DNA of 64,000 bases, from the NCBI GenBank assembly GCA_018831195.1, contig JAHJDP010000023.1, positions 62,001-126,000 on the forward strand, in the 5' to 3' direction. Both the position numbers and the translations under genes were made by a program. Below, in pieces: positions 25,360-55,517 of this stretch. The number at the start of each line of letters is the position of its first letter. Position 1 is the stretch's first letter. Below the pieces are notes generated by a model. The model was not told the origin of the DNA, did no database searches, and saw nothing but the letters and a program-made list of their open reading frames with translations. Origin of the DNA: Candidatus Eisenbacteria bacterium (lineage in GTDB: Bacteria > Eisenbacteria > RBG-16-71-46 > CAIMUX01 > JAHJDP01).

Positions 25360-25766
25360 TTTTTTTAAAACCGGGATCATCGGGGGGGGCGTCGTTCGGG
25401 GATGATGAATCCTCCGGCAAACCGCCGGCCAGGGTAAAAAAATCATCCGGCAGGCCGCGGGCCGGGGATGATGAATTCTCCGGCGAGCCCATGCAACTGC
25501 CCATTGAGGATGTGATTGATCTCCACGCCTTCCACCCGCGCGACATTCCCGATGTGGTGGCGGATTACCTTTGGGAGGCGGTGGACCGCGGATTTTCAGA
25601 AGTCCGGATCATTCATGGGAAAGGAACGGGCTATCAAAAAGATGTCGTGACCGAAATTTTGAAGAGCCATCCGGCCGTGGAGTCCTTCGCTTCCGCTCCA
25701 CCGGAACGAGGACATTGGGGAGCCACTGTCGTCCGGCTGCGTCAAGTCAACGGAGGTAAATCTTAA
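25356..25766 (+). CDS. Smr-domain protein with repetitive N-terminal region
   Basis: 136 residues starting at the ATG that overlaps the osmC stop (ATGA at 25356-25359). The last about 85 residues are a Smr domain: VIDLHAFHPRDIPDVVADYL and VRIIHGKGTGYQKDVV hold the DLH and HGKG motifs of the MutS2-type endonuclease family, and the end is GATVVRLR. The first about 45 residues are Gly/Ser/Asp-rich and contain two copies of a GDDE(S/F)SG unit, from an internal DNA repeat. A role in RNA or branched-DNA cleavage is known for relatives. Its final A is the first base of the next gene's ATG, so three different functions are chained here with no gaps. Confidence 0.85.
   Translation: MIFLKPGSSGGASFGDDESSGKPPARVKKSSGRPRAGDDEFSGEPMQLPIEDVIDLHAFHPRDIPDVVADYLWEAVDRGFSEVRIIHGKGTGYQKDVVTEILKSHPAVESFASAPPERGHWGATVVRLRQVNGGKS
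25398..25484 (+). repeat. Direct repeat inside the Smr gene
   Basis: The 21-base unit at 25398-25418 recurs at 25464-25484 with one mismatch (GGGGATGATGAAT then C or T then CTCCGGC), 66 bases apart and in frame. It encodes GDDESSG and GDDEFSG in the low-complexity N-terminus, suggesting internal duplication of a linker. Confidence 0.6.
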
Positions 25767-46073: not shown

Positions 46074-46262
46074 ACGTCAACACGGCTGACGCCGGCGGCC
46101 GGTCTCTGACCGTTGACGAACCGGCCCGCCATGGGTACATTAAGAGGTGGCGGATGTCTTTTCTGCAGCCGATCATTTTTGTTCGGCGCCCCGACTCCGG
46201 CCGAAGTCGGATGCCCATTCCCGCCCTCATGAAATACCATTGGTTTGAGGATGGAGGCCTCG

Positions 46263-46649
46263 ATGAAGATTCAGGTCCTGCAAGAGAAATGCACGGGTTG
46301 CAGACTCTGCGAGCAGATCTGCACCATTCACCACTGCAAAGAGATTAATCCCAAGAAATCAGCGATTCGCATCAAGGCGGAATTCCCCGTGCCGGGCGTC
46401 TTTATTCCGAAGCTCTGCGATCAATGTGGGGATTGTATAGAAGTCTGTCCTTCAAACGCCATTTCGAAAAAGGACGATGCCGTTGTCATTGATCCCGACG
46501 AATGTTCCAATTGTGGACTCTGCGTTCAGGAATGTCCAACCGGCGTCATCTACGAGCATCCCGATATGGAGACACCGATTATCTGTGATCTCTGTTTGAA
46601 ATGCACCGAGGTGTGCAACACGGGCGCGCTTGTCGTTATCGATGATTGA
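46263..46649 (+). CDS. Ferredoxin with four cysteine clusters (4Fe-4S), AOR partner
   Basis: 128 residues from the ATG at 46263 (GGAGG at 46253-46257). Cysteine groups: CTGCRLCEQIC, CDQCGDCIEVCP, CSNCGLCVQECP and CDLCLKCTEVC. The central two have the classical CxxCxxCxxxCP layout, and the outer two are related, so up to four 4Fe-4S centres are possible. It lies 19 bases upstream of the aldehyde ferredoxin oxidoreductase gene and is likely its electron acceptor. Cytoplasmic. Confidence 0.88.
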   Translation: MKIQVLQEKCTGCRLCEQICTIHHCKEINPKKSAIRIKAEFPVPGVFIPKLCDQCGDCIEVCPSNAISKKDDAVVIDPDECSNCGLCVQECPTGVIYEHPDMETPIICDLCLKCTEVCNTGALVVIDD

Positions 46650-46668
46650 TGAAAGGAGCAAGAGCAAG

Positions 46669-48585
46669 ATGAACGGATTCGGAGGAACCACGCTGCGGAT
46701 CAATCTCGCCACGGGGGACATCCGCCGGGAGCCGACATCGGAGAAGATGGCGCGTGAGTGGATGGGCGCCCGCGGTTTTGTTTCGAAGATTCTGTATGAA
46801 GAGGTTCCCCGGGACGCCGATCCGCTGGGACCGGATAATATTTTCATCATGGCCCCGGGCGTCTTGACCGGATCCTTCGCGCCCGCCGGCTCGAAGATCG
46901 GATTCGGATGCATCTCCCCCGCCACCAACGGCCATGCCGATTCGAGTATGGGCGGGCACCTCGGACCCGAACTGAAATATGCCGGTTACGACTATATCAT
47001 TTTGGAAAAGATCGCATCGGAACCCTCCTATATCTATATCGATAACGACACGGTTGAGATCCGCCCCGCCGGTGATTATTGGGGCATGGGATCGCTTGAC
47101 CTGGAAGCCCGCATGAAGACGGATCTCGGCGAGGAATTCCAGATCGCGACCATCGGTCCGGCCGGCGAAAACGGCGTCGTCTTCTCCTGCATCTCGCACG
47201 ATTTCGGCCGCCAGGCGGGCCGCTGCGGCGTCGGCGCCGTGATGGGCTCCAAAAAGATCAAGGCGATCGCCGTTCGCGGCACGAAATCACTTCCGGTCTA
47301 CGATATCGAGAAACACACGCAGCTGACCTATGACATTATTCAGCGGACAAAGACCCATCCAAACATGGCGCCCTGGCAGAAATATGGCACCTCCTTCTTT
47401 GTGGGTTGGTCGAACGAGCGGGGTTGCTTTCCCACCAAGAATTTCCAGACAACATATTTCAACGGCTGGGAACATATCGACGGCGAGCGCTTCGTCAAAG
47501 ATTGTGTTGTGACCGACAAGGCCTGTTTCGGCTGCTGGATGAACTGCGGGAAATACGCCGTGGCCAGGATCCCCGGCAAGCCGGACGCTTATCTCGAAGG
47601 ACCCGAATACGAGACACTGGCCCTGATCGGCGGCAATTGCGCCATGACCGATATCAATCATGTCGCCTATGCAAATTACCTCTGCGACAACCTCGGCATC
47701 GACACGATGAGCGGCGGCGCCTCCGTCGCCCTCGGAATGGAGTGCTATCAGAAGGGCCTCATCACAAAGGACGATCTCGAGGGGCATGAGCTGCGCTGGG
47801 GCAACATCGACGATTTTGAACATTTCACGCGGATGATCGTTGAGAAGCGTGGGATTGGCGCCGCTTTCTCCAGGGGAACGAAGCGGGCGGCGGATCACAT
47901 CGGCGGCGACGCGCCGAAGTTTATCTCACAGGCCAAGGGAATGGAGTTCAGCGGATATGACACGCGCTGGTATCCGTCACAGCTTCTCTCCTTCTGCACC
48001 GCCGATATCGGCGCGCATCACAATCGCAGCTGGGCGATCACGGCCGATCTCGAGCTCGGCCGCGAAACGATCGAGGGCAAAGCGGCGGTTGTAATTTATC
48101 TGCAGCATATCCGGCCCTTGTTTGATTCATGGAGCTGCTGCCGTCTCTTCTGGGGCGAGTTGGACATTACACCCGAGGAGCATGTCGAGTCGATCAACTG
48201 CCTGACCGGCTGGGATCTGACGATCGAAGAAGCGTATCGCATCTCCGAGAAGATCTGGAACCTGACCCGCGCGCATTATATCGAACGCAACGGCGGACCG
48301 GGGCGGGATCACGACCAGGCGCCGATCCGGCATCTCGAGGAGCCGGTTCCCGACGGCCCCGCACAGGGCAAGATGGTCGGCCGGGAAAACTTCGAGCGGC
48401 TTTTGGATGACTATTACAAAAACCGTGGCTGGGCCAAAAACGGCAATCCCACGCGGGAGATTCTCGAGGATCTCGGCCTCGGCTTCGCGGCGGACAATCT
48501 CGAGAAGATTGGGCAGCTGGGCGCGCCCATCCCCGGCGGCATCCCGGCGGTTCGCGGCCAGAAACTGAAACCGAAGGCGATGTAG
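46669..48585 (+). CDS. aor: Aldehyde ferredoxin oxidoreductase (tungsten/molybdenum enzyme)
   Basis: 638 residues from the ATG at 46669, with AAAGGAG about ten bases upstream. Oxidises aldehydes to carboxylates with ferredoxin. Family features: an N-terminal GTTLRINLATGDIRRE, GRQAGRCGVGAVMGSKKIKA, the cluster Cys set in ACFGCWMNCGKYA (Cys286, 289, 293) with Cys490/491 in SWSCCRLFWG, and the pterin-binding GMEFSGYDTRWYPSQLL-type segment. Length is normal. It is preceded by a ferredoxin and followed by a MoaD-like carrier that could supply its own pterin. Between about 48187 and 48210 is the stretch that recurs in degenerate form at 53923. Confidence 0.93.
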   Translation: MNGFGGTTLRINLATGDIRREPTSEKMAREWMGARGFVSKILYEEVPRDADPLGPDNIFIMAPGVLTGSFAPAGSKIGFGCISPATNGHADSSMGGHLGPELKYAGYDYIILEKIASEPSYIYIDNDTVEIRPAGDYWGMGSLDLEARMKTDLGEEFQIATIGPAGENGVVFSCISHDFGRQAGRCGVGAVMGSKKIKAIAVRGTKSLPVYDIEKHTQLTYDIIQRTKTHPNMAPWQKYGTSFFVGWSNERGCFPTKNFQTTYFNGWEHIDGERFVKDCVVTDKACFGCWMNCGKYAVARIPGKPDAYLEGPEYETLALIGGNCAMTDINHVAYANYLCDNLGIDTMSGGASVALGMECYQKGLITKDDLEGHELRWGNIDDFEHFTRMIVEKRGIGAAFSRGTKRAADHIGGDAPKFISQAKGMEFSGYDTRWYPSQLLSFCTADIGAHHNRSWAITADLELGRETIEGKAAVVIYLQHIRPLFDSWSCCRLFWGELDITPEEHVESINCLTGWDLTIEEAYRISEKIWNLTRAHYIERNGGPGRDHDQAPIRHLEEPVPDGPAQGKMVGRENFERLLDDYYKNRGWAKNGNPTREILEDLGLGFAADNLEKIGQLGAPIPGGIPAVRGQKLKPKAM

Positions 48586-48623: not shown

Positions 48624-48863
48624 ATGAAGATAACTCTTCGCGCCGGTGGAATCCTTAAGAACAAGCTGAAGACCGACGCCGACGAACACACGATGACGAT
48701 CGAGACGAAGGAGGGTCTCACATTAAGAGAGATCCTCAAGCAGGCCGACGTGCCTGAAGAATTCGTCGCCTTCGCCATCGTCGCGGGCGAGGTGCAGAGG
48801 CTGAAATATGTTCCGAAGGATGGTGATGAGATCACGCTTCAGCCGCCTGTTTCCGGCGGGTGA
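48624..48863 (+). CDS. MoaD/ThiS-like sulfur carrier for the AOR cofactor
   Basis: 79 residues. A beta-grasp pattern (MKITLRAGGILKN, LREILKQADV, YVPKDGDEITLQPPVSGG) ends in the Gly-Gly tail needed for thiocarboxylate formation. It lies 38 bases after the AOR gene, and AOR-type enzymes need the tungsten/molybdopterin cofactor whose dithiolene sulfur comes from MoaD. No MoaE, MoeB or other Mo-cofactor gene is nearby. Its last about 75 bases and 45 bases of downstream sequence are repeated 5163 bases further on. Confidence 0.88.
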   Translation: MKITLRAGGILKNKLKTDADEHTMTIETKEGLTLREILKQADVPEEFVAFAIVAGEVQRLKYVPKDGDEITLQPPVSGG

Positions 48864-48908
48864 TTTCTTCATGGTTTCCTGCTGGAATTGCTGCGATGAA
48901 CCCGCACC
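48789..48908 (+). repeat. Left copy of a 120-base direct repeat (3' end of moaD)
   Basis: Matches 53952-54071 with 3 mismatches in 120 bases; the tract 48818-48908 is identical over 91 bases. It includes the moaD stop codon (48861-48863) and 45 bases beyond. Identity stops abruptly at 48908/54071. The two copies bracket the island described in the findings. Confidence 0.95.
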
Positions 48909-49694
48909 CCTGCTCTCAAGTTGCACCAATCAATGCAACTAGACGTTCTGTAAAACTATGCGGGGTCCTGACGCGCCCTCCGTCCATTCTCTTCTCTGTG
49001 AAGCCATTATCATCAAAATCGCTACATCCGCTTAACGTAAGTTATCGCAAACTCGAGCGAATAATATCACTTGAGACCTGATCGGTTCAACTCGCAATAG
49101 GACCCACAAATGGACTCAAACTGAGCCTTGGATCGGACCACGATGGTTGCCGCCTTCAATTACTGGCGGGCCGACACCTAGATGATGGCGCACATTCAAG
49201 CCGCATCGCATGTGTCATATTCAACGCCGCGCTTGCTATAACATTAACAGAATCGCAACGTCAACCACAACGTTTCCCCGCGATCATCCCATAACACCAC
49301 TTTGCCCCGGAACACAACAAGTCCGCGCGGCACGGGAAATGATAGAATGACTGGCTTTTCAGGACACTTCGTGGATCTTAAGTCTGGCGGGCAAAATTCA
49401 TGTGACTTGAGCATTGGCTCGTCTTCTACATTGCATTCGCTTCCACAAAGATGCGAAATCTGCATTCCCGTCACGCCTGTTTGGAGCCACGATGAGCAAG
49501 CCGGGGGCAGATTTGGCGATTTTAACTCCCATGGGACGATTCAGCGACAGAAATTCGGCCCTCTTTATCATTTTCTAGATATCTGAGGGACCTCAAACGC
49601 AGGCACTATGCTGTGATATTAAGGGTTAGCCGATCCGACCCGTTTAAGAGCCAATGCCATTGGGTCCAACCAATCGAGAATCGTGAACAGAGAA
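48909..49694. other. Gene-poor left part of the island
   Basis: No convincing gene in about 790 bases. Two short open frames overlap on opposite strands near 49244-49586 (76 residues on minus from a GTG at 49474; 94 residues on plus from 49302). Neither has a good Shine-Dalgarno, recognisable domain or consistent composition. The region becomes visibly more AT-rich than the flanks toward its right end. Confidence 0.4.
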
Positions 49695-50207
49695 TCACCG
49701 AGTCTCCGTGTAGTTTAACTTGATGCTTCCCCAAGTAGTGATTTGAATCGGTGTTATTCCCTCCGGGTACGTAGCAAGCAGCAGGTAGGAATCATTCGCA
49801 TCATATACGTCTTCATACCCCTCGATGTCTATAATATATGTTCCCGTCGGCATATTTGATTCATGAATCTCTTCATCCTCTGATCCCCAGTTATTTGAAA
49901 ATGCCACCCAATCCCAGGAATCTTCTTCTGGATTGTACCTAAACAAATAAAGATCATAATCAGCTGGAAGCGAAGTTAGTGATATATCAATTGCACCAGC
50001 AATCGTGACTTCAAATGTATAGAGATCTACATCACCAGGAACAGAAATCCATGATTCATATGTGATTCCGCTTTCGATGGGATACGCATCCTCAATCGTG
50101 TTATTTGGTTCAAATGAATCTTCAGCAGATGCAATTCCTGTAGCGCCGACTAATAGAATTGTAAACAGGCACAAGATAAACACCAGGCCGCTATTTCTGG
50201 TTTTCAT
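49695..50207 (-). CDS. Secreted protein with a pre-peptidase C-terminal (PPC)-type domain
   Basis: 170 residues; GGGAGAG precedes the ATG. The signal peptide is LVFILCLFTILLVGATGIAS then AED. The body reads SFEPNNTIEDAYPI, YESWISVPGDVDLYTFEVTI, DISLTSLPADYDLYLFRYNP and GTYIIDIEGY, the hallmarks of the PPC beta-sandwich usually attached to secreted peptidases. Here it stands alone, without a catalytic domain or a FlgD-like tag. The coding sequence is much more AT-rich than the rest of the window and lies inside the repeat-bounded island, consistent with transfer. It is divergent from the beta-helix gene. Confidence 0.75.
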   Translation of the reverse strand: MKTRNSGLVFILCLFTILLVGATGIASAEDSFEPNNTIEDAYPIESGITYESWISVPGDVDLYTFEVTIAGAIDISLTSLPADYDLYLFRYNPEEDSWDWVAFSNNWGSEDEEIHESNMPTGTYIIDIEGYEDVYDANDSYLLLATYPEGITPIQITTWGSIKLNYTETR

Positions 50208-50355
50208 ACCTCACTCTCCCTTTTCATTTATTAAACTGTTGGCTTGCTATTCATCGGCATGAATCACCAATAGCTTGTGTGATCATTAGTCACTGATAAG
50301 GATACATCAACTGATGAGATTTTTGTAGATCCCAACATTCCTTGTGGAGGCAGGC

Positions 50356-50372
50356 TTAGAGTTTAACTCTAA
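50356..50372. promoter_or_regulatory. 17-base palindrome upstream of the beta-helix gene
   Basis: TTAGAGTT, one T, AACTCTAA: a perfect 8-base inverted repeat about 200 bases before the GTG at 50574. It could be an operator or a small hairpin. No regulator gene is nearby. Confidence 0.35.
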
Positions 50373-50412
50373 TCCTGGACCGATCCTGGGGGTCAGGCCA
50401 GGTCCGTAACCG

Positions 50413-50442
50413 GGGGTTAGGAATGAGTCACATCCTAACTCC
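50413..50442. repeat. REP-like hairpin upstream of the beta-helix gene
   Basis: GGGGTTAGGA (50413-50422) pairs with TCCTAACTCC (50433-50442) with one G-U, around a 10-base loop. Just upstream is TGGGGGTCAGGCCAGG (50387-50402), reminiscent of the GGGGTCAGG ends of REP elements moved by Y1 (RAYT) transposases. No transposase is present, so a remnant at most. Confidence 0.35.
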
Positions 50443-50573
50443 AACTCCGACAGCCGGATGGCCTCTACCGAAGGAACAACAGATATTCCGGATACAGACT
50501 GCTCGAGAGAGATGCTATACTATTCCTGAATCTCAAGCGCCCTATCGCCATGAATTGTCGAAGGGAGGCTCCC

Positions 50574-53500
50574 GTGACTTGCCGCTCCTGGCCTCTATTT
50601 CTGCTGATCCTGCTGATACCGGATCAGTGTGCCCTTTCGAGTGAGATTCTACGCGTCGATCCCATCAACGGGCCATTTTATACAATTCAGTCAGCCATCG
50701 ATTCATGCGAAGCATACGACATTGTCGAGCTGGCGCCGGCCTCATTCGATGAATCGGTCACCATAGAAACCAAGAGCATCACCATCCGGTCCACCGACGG
50801 CCCCGCGGCCACGATCTGGGATGGATCGGGGCAGCACCGCCTCATTTTGGCGGCTGATTGCAACCTCACGCTCGAAGGGATCACATTCCAGAATGGTTGG
50901 ACCGATGTCGGCGGAGGCGGCGCCGTCCGAGCCCGCCATTCTATTCTGCAGATTCAGGATTGCGCTTTCCGCGGGAATGTCGTCGGTTGTGCGCCAACGG
51001 GACGGACTCAAGGAGGCGCCATCTATTTAAGCGGCAGTAACAGCGGAGTCGATATCCGCCGCAGCCTGTTCGTGGAGAATCGGACAATTGGTGACATGAA
51101 TAATGGCGGGGCCGTCGCTTTTACAATATTCGATTCAGGTTTGAATCCGAATTCGGACGCCGCTGATCCTGCGCTTCAGGCCAACCCTGGCTCAATGACG
51201 ATTGAGGACTGCACCTTCCTTCGCAATGTCTCCGGGTGGGATGGCTCCGCGGTTATGGACTGGGTCTCGAGTGTGCTTTCTGTCCAGCGTTGTCTCTTTA
51301 TTGAAAACAGGAGACTGGGCGGCCTAAGGACAGGTGGTATATTCACACTCAGCTCGGGTCTTTTGAATCTCCACTGCTGTCTGATTTGGGAAGAGTCCTC
51401 CCCGGTAATCGATGATCGCGAGTTGCTCGCACAAGAAAATCTTGCCGGTTACTTCTATGCTGATCCACGGATATGTCCGGACGATCCGGAGACTATCCAC
51501 GAGAGTTCGCCGGCTTTGACCTGGCTGGGGTGCCCGGATATCGGCAATCTGCCGGTCGGATGCCGTGGTCCCATTGTCCTGTCGGTTCGAGCGCATCCCC
51601 TCAATCCTGAGGCAGCCCAGATAATCCGCATTTATGGGTATGGTTTGGACGAGGTAGATGGAGCAACGCTCGAATCTTCGGAGGGAGAGATCTACGAGGA
51701 TGTTCGGCTTTCTCATGACGACACGTGGCTTGCCGTCACATTTGATCTTTTGGGAGCGGATCCGGGATCATGGACGCTTCGGCTGTTTGAAGGTGGTGAG
51801 CCTGTGGCCTCGCTGGAAGAGGCCGTTACGGTGCTCCCATTTACAGTCCTTGCCTTCCTGGAGCCATGGATCGAAACGCGTGATAGCCGATCGCTGAAAC
51901 TGGCGCAGCGCGGATGGACGGGGGAGATAGGTCTTGAGCTGGTTCACAGCGAAATTGATGAAAGAATCCCCTTTCAAGAAATGGAGCAGATTGCTTCCGA
52001 TACCCTACTCCTGAATGCTGACTTCCAGTGGGCTGCAGATGGTGTTTATGACCTAGAGGTTACCAAAGGAACCCAAGCTGTTCGTGTTGAAGACGTTTTG
52101 TATGTAGGAATTCCCCCCGTATTGAGGGTGCCGGATGATTATGAGACAATTCCCGATGCCATCCTAGCCGCCCCTCCCGGAGCTGAGATCCAAGTGGGGG
52201 AAGGAATTTATCCGGAATCCGTCGTCGTGGACCGCCCGATCAGATTAAGAGGGCAGGGCCGGACCACCCGGATTTCACTCGCCGAAAGTGAAACAACTCG
52301 CTGCGTCCATATTCTGGAGTCCGCAGGTCGCATCACGAGAATTGACAGCCTGACTATTGAAAGGGGCGCTCCCGCATCGGGGTCAGGCGGTGGTTTACTG
52401 GCCGAGGCGCCAGTGACCGTTCATGCCTGTAATTTTTATTACAACCGTGCCGGCCTGGGTAACGGAGGGGCTGCATGCCTGGCCCCCGGCAGCCAGGTTC
52501 TCGGCTCCAACTTCATGTACAATGGATTGAACGGGGGTGAGTCCGGCGTCGTCTCGGATCCGTTTGCGGGAGCGCATGGCGTAGCTGGAGCCCTTTTTTG
52601 CCTCGATTGCCGAGTAGAAAATTCACAATTTGAGGGCAACTTCGCGCCATGTGTGGGAGCTGCTGCTGTGAGAGGTCTTTTTCGAAACAACCATCTCGGT
52701 TACAATTTTGATTCGTGGTATGAGGGGGATGGAATCGATGCCCTTGCTGCGCAGGGGGAAATTACGGGCAACCGGTTTGAAAACTCATGCGGGAGCGACG
52801 GCCCGCCCATAGCCTTCATCCTCGGTCCGTCATCTGTTTCTTACAATACATTTAGTGACTATTGGCAGGATATGTGTTATGAACTAAGCCTTGTGCAACT
52901 TCAAGGTCCCGTCGATTTCTTTCACAATACACTCGCAGGTACTGGACTCCAGATTTGTACACACATCCAAACCCCGCCTGGGCCTGGAGACAAGATTCGC
53001 ATCTATAACAATTTGATTGAATCCGGCCGGGCTCACTATCCTGACCTTTTCTATTGCCGGAGGAGGCTTGTTCTAGGCCCGGTCTTTTCGATTCCAACGA
53101 CAAATATCGAATCTTCGTGCAACCTGGGCGACGATATTGCAATCTATTCGCCCAGCGGTCGTTATGAATGTCCCGACTGCGTGCATGAGATGCATGACGT
53201 TGGATACTGCGAAGTTCCTTATGATGACGGATACCATTCTTACGGTGAATTCAACCTGAGGCTGCGTCTTAATAGCCCAGCCCTACCAAACAATTCACCG
53301 ATCGGGTGCGCGGATACACTCGGGGCGCAACCGGTGGGATGCGATGTTGTCCCGGTGCTGGTGTCCGGAGCTCAGGTCGGATTGACTGACGATGGTGTGG
53401 AATTAAGCTGGACGCTCTCGTCCGATCTTTCCGTGCTTGGCTTTGGGCTCATGCGAGAGAATGACGGGCAAAGAATCGAATTGACAGCGGAGCCCATGCC

Positions 53501-53906
53501 ACCCTGCAACCAATGCCGATACCTGGACCACGAGGCTTTGCTGCTTTCGGGCCCCACTGAATATTGGCTCACAATCCTCTGGGACAATGGGCGCGAAGAT
53601 ATCGTGCCGCTGGGCGGTCTCGCGCTCACGGCCCCGCGAGAGATGCGCCTTGACCCTCCGCATCCTAATCCCGTATCGGTCGCGGGCAGTGTCTCTTTTT
53701 ATCTACCGCGGAAATCTTATGCTCAAGTGGAGTTGATCGATGTCGCAGGACGCCGCGTGATGAAATTATTGGAGGCGTGGACGGATCCTGGGCGCACCAT
53801 CATCTCTCTCCACCAAGAAATTCCGCAACTGCAATCAGGTATCTATTGGATCCGTCTAAGCGCCGAAGGCCAATCGCGCACCCGGCGTTTCGTGGTGGTT
53901 CGATAA
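50574..53906 (+). CDS. Secreted right-handed beta-helix protein with FlgD-like C-terminal module
   Basis: 1110 residues from GTG at 50574, five bases after GGGAGG (50563-50568); the upstream ATG at 50550 would bury that site. The signal peptide is WPLFLLILLIPDQCALSS. Two parallel beta-helix regions follow: FYTIQSAIDSCEAYDIVELA through GAVRARHSILQIQDCAFRG, and VPDDYETIPDAILAAPPGAE through GGLLAEAPVTVHACNFYYN, both the pectate-lyase/NosD-like pattern. Ig-like linkers lie between, and the FlgD-like module ends it (PPHPNPVSVAGSVSFYLPRK, LIDVAGRRVMKLLEA, QLQSGIYWIRLS). WDGR is replaced by SLHQEI in this copy. Polysaccharide binding or cleavage is possible; the catalytic residues are not evident. 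It sits within the repeat-bounded island. Confidence 0.82.
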   Translation: MTCRSWPLFLLILLIPDQCALSSEILRVDPINGPFYTIQSAIDSCEAYDIVELAPASFDESVTIETKSITIRSTDGPAATIWDGSGQHRLILAADCNLTLEGITFQNGWTDVGGGGAVRARHSILQIQDCAFRGNVVGCAPTGRTQGGAIYLSGSNSGVDIRRSLFVENRTIGDMNNGGAVAFTIFDSGLNPNSDAADPALQANPGSMTIEDCTFLRNVSGWDGSAVMDWVSSVLSVQRCLFIENRRLGGLRTGGIFTLSSGLLNLHCCLIWEESSPVIDDRELLAQENLAGYFYADPRICPDDPETIHESSPALTWLGCPDIGNLPVGCRGPIVLSVRAHPLNPEAAQIIRIYGYGLDEVDGATLESSEGEIYEDVRLSHDDTWLAVTFDLLGADPGSWTLRLFEGGEPVASLEEAVTVLPFTVLAFLEPWIETRDSRSLKLAQRGWTGEIGLELVHSEIDERIPFQEMEQIASDTLLLNADFQWAADGVYDLEVTKGTQAVRVEDVLYVGIPPVLRVPDDYETIPDAILAAPPGAEIQVGEGIYPESVVVDRPIRLRGQGRTTRISLAESETTRCVHILESAGRITRIDSLTIERGAPASGSGGGLLAEAPVTVHACNFYYNRAGLGNGGAACLAPGSQVLGSNFMYNGLNGGESGVVSDPFAGAHGVAGALFCLDCRVENSQFEGNFAPCVGAAAVRGLFRNNHLGYNFDSWYEGDGIDALAAQGEITGNRFENSCGSDGPPIAFILGPSSVSYNTFSDYWQDMCYELSLVQLQGPVDFFHNTLAGTGLQICTHIQTPPGPGDKIRIYNNLIESGRAHYPDLFYCRRRLVLGPVFSIPTTNIESSCNLGDDIAIYSPSGRYECPDCVHEMHDVGYCEVPYDDGYHSYGEFNLRLRLNSPALPNNSPIGCADTLGAQPVGCDVVPVLVSGAQVGLTDDGVELSWTLSSDLSVLGFGLMRENDGQRIELTAEPMPPCNQCRYLDHEALLLSGPTEYWLTILWDNGREDIVPLGGLALTAPREMRLDPPHPNPVSVAGSVSFYLPRKSYAQVELIDVAGRRVMKLLEAWTDPGRTIISLHQEIPQLQSGIYWIRLSAEGQSRTRRFVVVR

Positions 53907-53922
53907 ATTCCGGCTCATCAAG

Positions 53923-54026
53923 GAATCAATCAACTGTCTGACCGGCATGCAGAGGTGCAGCGGCTCAAATATGTTCCGAGGGATGGTGATGAGATCACGC
54001 TTCAGCCGCCTGTTTCCGGCGGGTGA
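53923..54026 (+). pseudogene. Remnant of a second AOR-moaD pair
   Basis: 53923-53946 encodes ESINCLTG exactly as 48187-48210 in the intact AOR, but with three third-position changes (GAG/GAA, TCG/TCA, TGC/TGT). It then jumps directly to the last about 25 codons of a moaD (53952-54026) whose early bases also differ, mostly synonymously, before becoming identical to the intact copy. Everything between has been lost, including about 125 AOR codons and the first two thirds of moaD. The synonymous-only pattern shows it descends from a functional, diverged homologue. Confidence 0.8.
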
Positions 54027-54071
54027 TTTCTTCATGGTTTCCTGCTGGAATTGCTGCGATGAACCCGCACC
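53952..54071 (+). repeat. Right copy of the 120-base direct repeat
   Basis: Partner of 48789-48908 at a 5163-base offset: 117 of 120 bases identical, all three mismatches in the first 29 bases. It lies between the beta-helix gene and asnS, and ends 46 bases before the asnS stop. Confidence 0.95.
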
Positions 54072-54116: not shown

Positions 54117-55517
54117 TTAAAACTCGGCGTTCCCCGGCGTTCTTGGGAAGGGAATCGCATCGCGGATGTTGCCCAGACCCGTCGCGTAGTTGATGGTGCG
54201 CTCAAAGCCGAGCCCGAATCCCGCGTGGGGCACGGTGCCGTACCGCCGGAGATCGCGGTACCACCAGTAATCATCTTTGTTGAGCCCGATCTCATCGATA
54301 CGTTGATCGAGCACATCGAGCCGCTCTTCGCGCTGGCTTCCGCCGATGATCTCCCCCATGCCCGGCGCCAAGACATCCATGGCGGCGACGGTCTTGCCGT
54401 CGTCGTTAAGCCGCATATAGAAGGCTTTGATTTCTCTGGGATAGTTCACCACGATGAGAGGCGCCTTCACATGCTCCTCGGTCAGATAACGCTCATGCTC
54501 CGATTGCAGATCGACACCCCACTTTACCGGGAACTCAAAACTCTTCTTTGACTTCTCCAGCGCCGTGATCGCGTCGGTATACTCCATCCGCTCAAAGGGG
54601 GATTTGATCAGCTTCTCCAGCCGGTTGATGCAATCCTTCTCCACCCGCTTCTCAAAGAAGGCCATATCGTCAGCGCGCTCCTTTAACAGAGCGGAAAAGA
54701 TATACTTTAAGAAATCTTCAGCGAGCTGCGCGTCATCCTGGAGATCGGCAAAGGCGATCTCCGGTTCAATCATCCAGAATTCCGAGAGATGGCGGCTCGT
54801 GTTGGAGTTTTCGGCGCGGAAGGTCGGACCGAATGTATAAACCTTGCTCATGGCGAGACAATAGGTCTCGACATTGAGCTGGCCTGAGACGGCGAGGTAG
54901 GCCGGGCGGCCGAAGAAATCTTTGGTGAAGTCGATGCCGCCGCCGGGCGTCCGGGGAATGTTGGCCAGATCGAGTGTGGAGACACGGAACATTTCGCCGG
55001 CGCCTTCGGCGTCACTCGCGGCGATGATCGGCGTGTGAATCCAATAGTAACCCTGTTCGCTGAAGAACCTGTGGATGGCCATCGAGAGGCAGTGCCGCAC
55101 GCGCGCCACGGCGCCGAAGGTATTGGTGCGGGATCGAAGATGCGCCACGGTGCGCAGGTATTCTACGGTGTGGTGCTTGGGCGAAATGGGATAGGTGTCC
55201 GGATCCTCCACCCATCCGACAACGTCGATGCGCGTCGCGTGGATCTCATAGGCCTGGCCCTTCGCCGGGGATTCAACCAGTGTTCCCTCAACCATGACGG
55301 AACATCCCGCCGTTAGTTTAAGTATTTCTTCCTGGTAATTCGGCAGCGTGTTATCGGCAACAACCTGTATCGCGTCGAAACAGGATCCGTCATGTGTGTG
55401 TATAAATGAGATTCCGGCTTTTGAATCACGCCGCGTCCTGACCCATCCCTCCACGGTGACCGGCTGCCCGACCGGCGCCTTTCCGGCCAGGAGACCGGCA
55501 ATCGACATCTTGGTCAT
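54117..55517 (-). CDS. asnS: Asparaginyl-tRNA synthetase
   Basis: 466 residues. Charges tRNA-Asn with asparagine. The N-terminal OB-fold anticodon domain ([20 protein letters not shown]) is followed by the class IIb catalytic core: motif 2 [20 protein letters not shown] and motif 3 [16 protein letters not shown], with [20 protein letters not shown] between, typical of AsnRS rather than AspRS. Normal length. The ATG at 55517 has a modest AGAGGA site; MSIAGLL three codons in is an alternative. Its end is close to the right repeat copy, so the island stops just short of this essential gene. Confidence 0.95.

Follow-up and report, generated by a model that had tools for sequence, protein, structure and literature searches.

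Introduction

Several described systems leave foreign-looking DNA beside a resident gene. In Campbell insertion-duplication, such DNA is flanked by direct repeats of the end of the resident gene, which stays intact on one side. The element e14 integrates at the 3' end of icd; here the end of a protein gene is duplicated with silent differences and the gene itself is kept intact. Sedentary chromosomal integrons offer a further route, since cassettes have been described to insert at attG sites (Loot et al. 2024, as cited in PMC12901181). In homology-facilitated illegitimate recombination, one homologous and one non-homologous joint (PMC3240628) can likewise place foreign DNA next to a resident gene.

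The locus analysed here, the aor-moaD region of a Candidatus Eisenbacteria genome, resembles each of these systems in part. Direct repeats of the moaD end flank foreign-looking DNA as in insertion-duplication, but one copy is truncated, carries an internal aor-moaD deletion and has diverged synonymously, and no circle or plasmid functions are present. Compared with e14, an integrase is missing and the homology runs into the upstream gene. As in attG insertions, the left end of the island is similar to an attC arm, and a repeat that follows it recurs in cassette-like arrays; this process could nevertheless have produced no more than the left third, and the 120-base repeat would stay unexplained. 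Homology-facilitated illegitimate recombination differs in that, by itself, it does not duplicate its anchor. The locus works like an insertion-duplication scar, yet it does not pass as a self-mobile element.

Results

Two copies of the moaD 3' end

The window, as we call the whole stretch of 64,000 nucleotides that was analysed, corresponds to C23:62001-126000 of genome G000, a MAG of 5.24 Mb in 123 contigs. Pairwise sequence comparison confirmed the repeat exactly as it had been described in the original prediction: positions 48789-48908 and 53952-54071, both on the forward strand, share 117 of their 120 bases. The three mismatches (48798, 48803 and 48817) are followed by a run of 91 identical bases (48818-48908). 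The left copy consists of the last 24 moaD codons, the stop codon and downstream bases, 45 of its 120 bases being noncoding sequence 3' of the moaD coding region. The right copy contains the same 3' end and downstream bases, the 5' part of the gene being absent. A homologous segment is thus directly repeated at both borders, as in a Campbell integrant. A search of the whole 5.24-Mb genome found the 120 bases in exactly these two places and nowhere else, and within the window this is the sole long direct repeat in two copies. Chance origin of the repeat is excluded. The island's two inner ends (48909-48933 and 53910-53933) also share a short similarity, at a level reached by 4 of 1000 shuffles.

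On the left, the repeat belongs to an intact operon on the forward strand. Its first gene (46245-46649) codes for a ferredoxin-type 4Fe-4S protein (Pfam Fer4 families) and is followed by aor (46630-48585), encoding an aldehyde ferredoxin oxidoreductase (AFOR_N, E = 4e-70; AFOR_C, E = 5e-112), and by moaD (48624-48863), whose product is a MoaD/ThiS-type sulfur carrier with a GG end (ThiS, 4e-7), conserved after AOR. At the nearest Eisenbacteria loci, where AOR is 73-79% identical in amino acids, the gene order is aminotransferase (divergent), ferredoxin, AOR and MoaD; a ThiF/MoeB-like gene comes next at most of these loci. In the window, thiF is absent after moaD and nearby, and no remnants of it were found in or beside the island. 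The only thiF homologue detected elsewhere in the genome is 37% identical (C23:217527-218246). ATGAACCCGCACC was considered as the start of a lost thiF and rejected, as N-termini of the relatives give no support.

A remnant of aor next to the right copy

The original prediction saw an island bounded by 120-base repeats of the moaD end. The repeats are real, but the repeated unit is longer, as bases of aor precede the right copy. The 24 bases at 53923-53946 (forward strand) correspond to aor codons 520-527 and match the segment of the intact gene at 48187-48210 (forward strand) in 21 of 24 positions, a match for which shuffled sequences gave an expectation of 0 by chance. This remnant, by which the right-hand side holds more than moaD, ends 5 bases before the right repeat copy, and the intervening forward-strand ATGCA (53947-53951) forms a deletion junction joining it to moaD codon 56. 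In the intact operon, the two pieces lie 578 bases apart. The right-hand copy therefore reads as a stub left by a second aor-moaD copy that differs slightly from the first and has lost an internal part.

Differences between the two copies are few and regular. All three in the aor part are synonymous and fall on third codon positions, and two of the three in the moaD part are synonymous. Together this makes 5 of 6, a small number for which the probability of at least 5 of 6 at a synonymous fraction of 0.23 is p=0.003. Since most changes are synonymous, the second copy probably diverged while it was functional, under selection and before its decay, as far as six differences can tell. All six differences are confined to the first 53 of the 144 compared bases (p 0.002), and this abrupt change to 100% identity suggests that the shared 3' end later underwent gene conversion.

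The asnS side

Beyond the right repeat, and separated from it by 45 bases, ends the convergent asnS gene (54117-55517, reverse strand; Pfam tRNA-synt_2, 2e-63). Within the same order, asnS is 69-77% identical in amino acids and has other neighbours, as was seen in each of the seven order relatives inspected. An empty site, that is a moaD-asnS junction, was found in none of the order relatives searched, a set that includes no genome of the same family. Because thiF follows moaD in relatives and the asnS neighbourhood is not conserved, these genomes offer no comparable site.

Dispersed repeat and probable attC-like half in the left third of the island

What had been described as gene-poor DNA between the repeats is of mobile type: it contains a probable half of an attC-like site, a repeat dispersed in the genome and one end of an insertion sequence. 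GC content of 48909-50549 is 0.46, against 0.57 for the window.

Thirty bases beyond the left repeat lies a probable decayed half of an attC-like site, an R'-L' arm (48939-48987, forward strand). Its similarity to four attC-like sites of contigs C71 and C115 was reached by 0, 0, 4 and 8 of 2000 shuffles; by local alignment, it does not match two attC-like sites of C51. A complete attC hairpin was not found in the window, and the island holds neither attC nor attI in complete form. Given the resemblance of this segment to an attC-like arm, the left third of the island probably derives from a cassette. An inverted repeat, GTTAGGA...TCCTAAC (50416-50439), is a possible right border of the cassette-derived part, judging from its sequence and from the fold of 50341-50470.

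The attC-like half is directly followed by a fragment of a dispersed noncoding repeat (48988-49665, forward strand), which matches contigs C60, C115, C71 and C51 at 69-74%. This family of about 650 bp (0.65-0.9 kb) has at least seven other copies in the genome, among them copies or fragments on C27, C63 and C18, with identities of 69-82% over the family; several share their contig with attC-like sites. Apart from the window, its loci include L144 3101-4040, L181 2602-3316, L182 12078-13068 and L145 4892-5536. Several copies are situated at contig ends, as expected of a repeat that breaks assemblies. Two genomes of the same order (G002 and G003) match part of the repeat weakly. On C71 and in the window alike, the repeat adjoins the 3' end of a convergent secreted-type gene. 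On C63, on C71 and in G002, its neighbours include other recombinases, and another mobile context for it is therefore possible. In general, the repeat is often found beside a small conserved gene (L181 472-789), recombinases, type I restriction genes and secreted proteins.

Two candidate roles for the repeat were rejected: a conserved reading frame, on account of one-base indels between copies, and a structured RNA, as the covariation term of RNAalifold was positive (unfavourable). No Rfam family scored above its gathering score in the repeat.

Genes of the island

Two secreted-type genes, one of them AT-rich, lie between the repeats, as had been predicted. The first (49695-50207, reverse strand) encodes a protein with a PPC domain (Pfam, 1.4e-7) and has a homologue of 59% amino acid identity on C22. 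Its GC is 0.41 and its GC3 0.38, and its codon use (z -3.2) looks foreign. The second (50550-53906, forward strand) encodes a beta-helix protein (Beta_helix, 1.7e-7) with a C-terminal sorting-type domain (Por_Secre_tail, below cut-off). A full-length homologue (43%) is present in G007 of the same order, with no aor beside it, and shorter matches occur in 53 of 59 relatives; the family is thus native to the lineage at the level of the order. Codon use of the beta-helix gene is nevertheless somewhat low (z -2.0). Elsewhere in the window, a short tandem repeat with a period of 33 bases was noted at 25376-25489.

Between the two genes lies a solo end of an IS3-type insertion sequence (50350-50400, forward strand). 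It corresponds, at 87% identity, to the right end of the IS3-like element of C94, and it matches C78 at 82%. In the C94 element (L149 2968-4225), the two ends form an imperfect terminal inverted repeat; in the island, the right end alone is left. It was also the only part of 50250-53960 for which a DNA search gave other copies. No integrase or other mobility, replication or mobilisation domain was recognised by Pfam in the two island proteins, drawn from the open reading frames of 48909-53951. The stretch between the repeats is accessory, as had been supposed, with its fragment of a dispersed repeat, its solo IS3 end and a PPC gene of foreign-looking codon use.

Integron components elsewhere in the genome

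A full-length integron integrase is encoded at C69:1123-2064 (L157), where TIGR02249 scores 441 bits (cut-off 265); another integrase gene of this type, at C65:3625-4332 (L158), is disrupted. Repeats similar to attC separate genes on contigs C115, C71, C51, C27, C60, C63 and C65, and one of them (C71:6901-7040) folds into a long hairpin. Judged by its sequence, the genome holds integron-type cassette arrays.

Discussion

The account we favour, although with somewhat less than even confidence, is a decayed duplication or acquisition of aor-moaD, with accessory DNA between the copies and a homogenised 3' end. A second aor-moaD copy would have arisen by tandem duplication, or entered with related DNA, and would have stood between the beta-helix gene and asnS. 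It may have kept its function for a time in which the changes it gathered were mainly synonymous, and then been deleted almost entirely. Accessory DNA (the cassette-derived repeat together with the PPC gene, an IS3 insertion of which one end survives, and the beta-helix gene) would have gathered between the copies, and a RecA-dependent exchange between the two ends may have made the last 91 bases identical. We infer that the repeats are remains of homology between two operon copies, not att sites of an element; the sequence in which the events took place, selective constraint on the second copy, gene conversion and the cassette origin are likewise inferred.

Several observations speak for this duplication and decay. 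The aor remnant adjoins the right repeat; five of six differences are synonymous, and all six are crowded into the first 53 of 144 bases. Island DNA is akin to dispersed repeats of the same genome and includes a solo IS3 end, codon use of the PPC gene is atypical, and the two island proteins lack integrase or mobility domains. Against it, the remnant is short (24 bases), the argument for selection rests on six differences, two complete operon copies were seen in no relative, and the model must assume that gene conversion affected precisely the shared 3' end.

The original prediction invoked a circle, bearing a moaD-like segment as well as the island, that was inserted into moaD through a single homologous crossover (Campbell type), with direct repeats as the result. 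Correct orientation of the repeats, a moaD reconstituted on the left, the 91-base identical run and accessory content between the repeats all agree with such an event. The right copy, however, is a previously damaged and diverged aor-moaD stub, which the circle must already have carried, so that the structure is explained only by assuming the same structure beforehand. In the island we recognised no gene for replication, mobilisation or an integrase, and a single crossover leaves diverged copies diverged throughout, so conversion is needed here as well. Circle integration, possible but unproven, explains less than duplication and decay, and we regard it as unlikely. Its expected reversal fared better: recombination between the 91-base identical runs would indeed restore a clean moaD-asnS junction. 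Both models predict this RecA-dependent deletion of 5163 bases, with moaD left intact.

Insertion of an integron cassette beside moaD, outside any integron (attC x attG type), would make the direct repeat a separate matter. The half attC-like site near the left repeat fits this idea, as do the full-length integrase on C69 and the orientation of repeat and PPC gene, which is that of the cassette-like contigs. Against it stand a degenerate attC half, an undefined right border and the fact that such insertion does not create a 120-base repeat; the noncoding repeat also stands beside other recombinases, and its link to cassettes may thus be indirect. As an explanation of the locus, we consider it rather improbable. 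A composite scenario appears more speculative still: a cassette would have left its array and been inserted at a non-classical position beside a core metabolic operon, with later recombination between two operon copies, the repeat of about 650 bp being an undescribed cassette module. We also weighed an artefact of MAG assembly, in which two strains or loci were joined at the repeat. The 123 contigs, the 91-base identical run and related repeats at contig ends could point that way; yet both copies and both flanks are inside one 317-kb contig, a repeat collapsed in assembly would show as a break or shortcut, not as a sequence passed through twice, and the diverged aor-moaD stub must in any case be real DNA. 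We judge this very improbable, and put site-specific integration at the moaD 3' end, in the manner of e14 at icd and with later loss of the integrase, lowest of all. A restored gene and a duplicated 3' end that differs synonymously on one side but is identical across the gene end would suit it, and integrase genes do occur in the genome, but none of the reading frames examined in 48909-53951 contains an integrase domain, the repeat is found nowhere else in the genome, and homology extends 5' of moaD into aor, which no att site needs.

A flanking direct repeat that resembles a textbook integration scar can thus instead be the stub of a duplicated operon. The analysis also indicates integron-type integrases and cassette-like repeats in Candidatus Eisenbacteria; our full-text literature search returned no paper naming both integron and Eisenbacteria. 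The practical consequence for the locus itself is modest: a deletable accessory stretch of 5 kb beside an intact aor-moaD operon that has no adjacent thiF partner.
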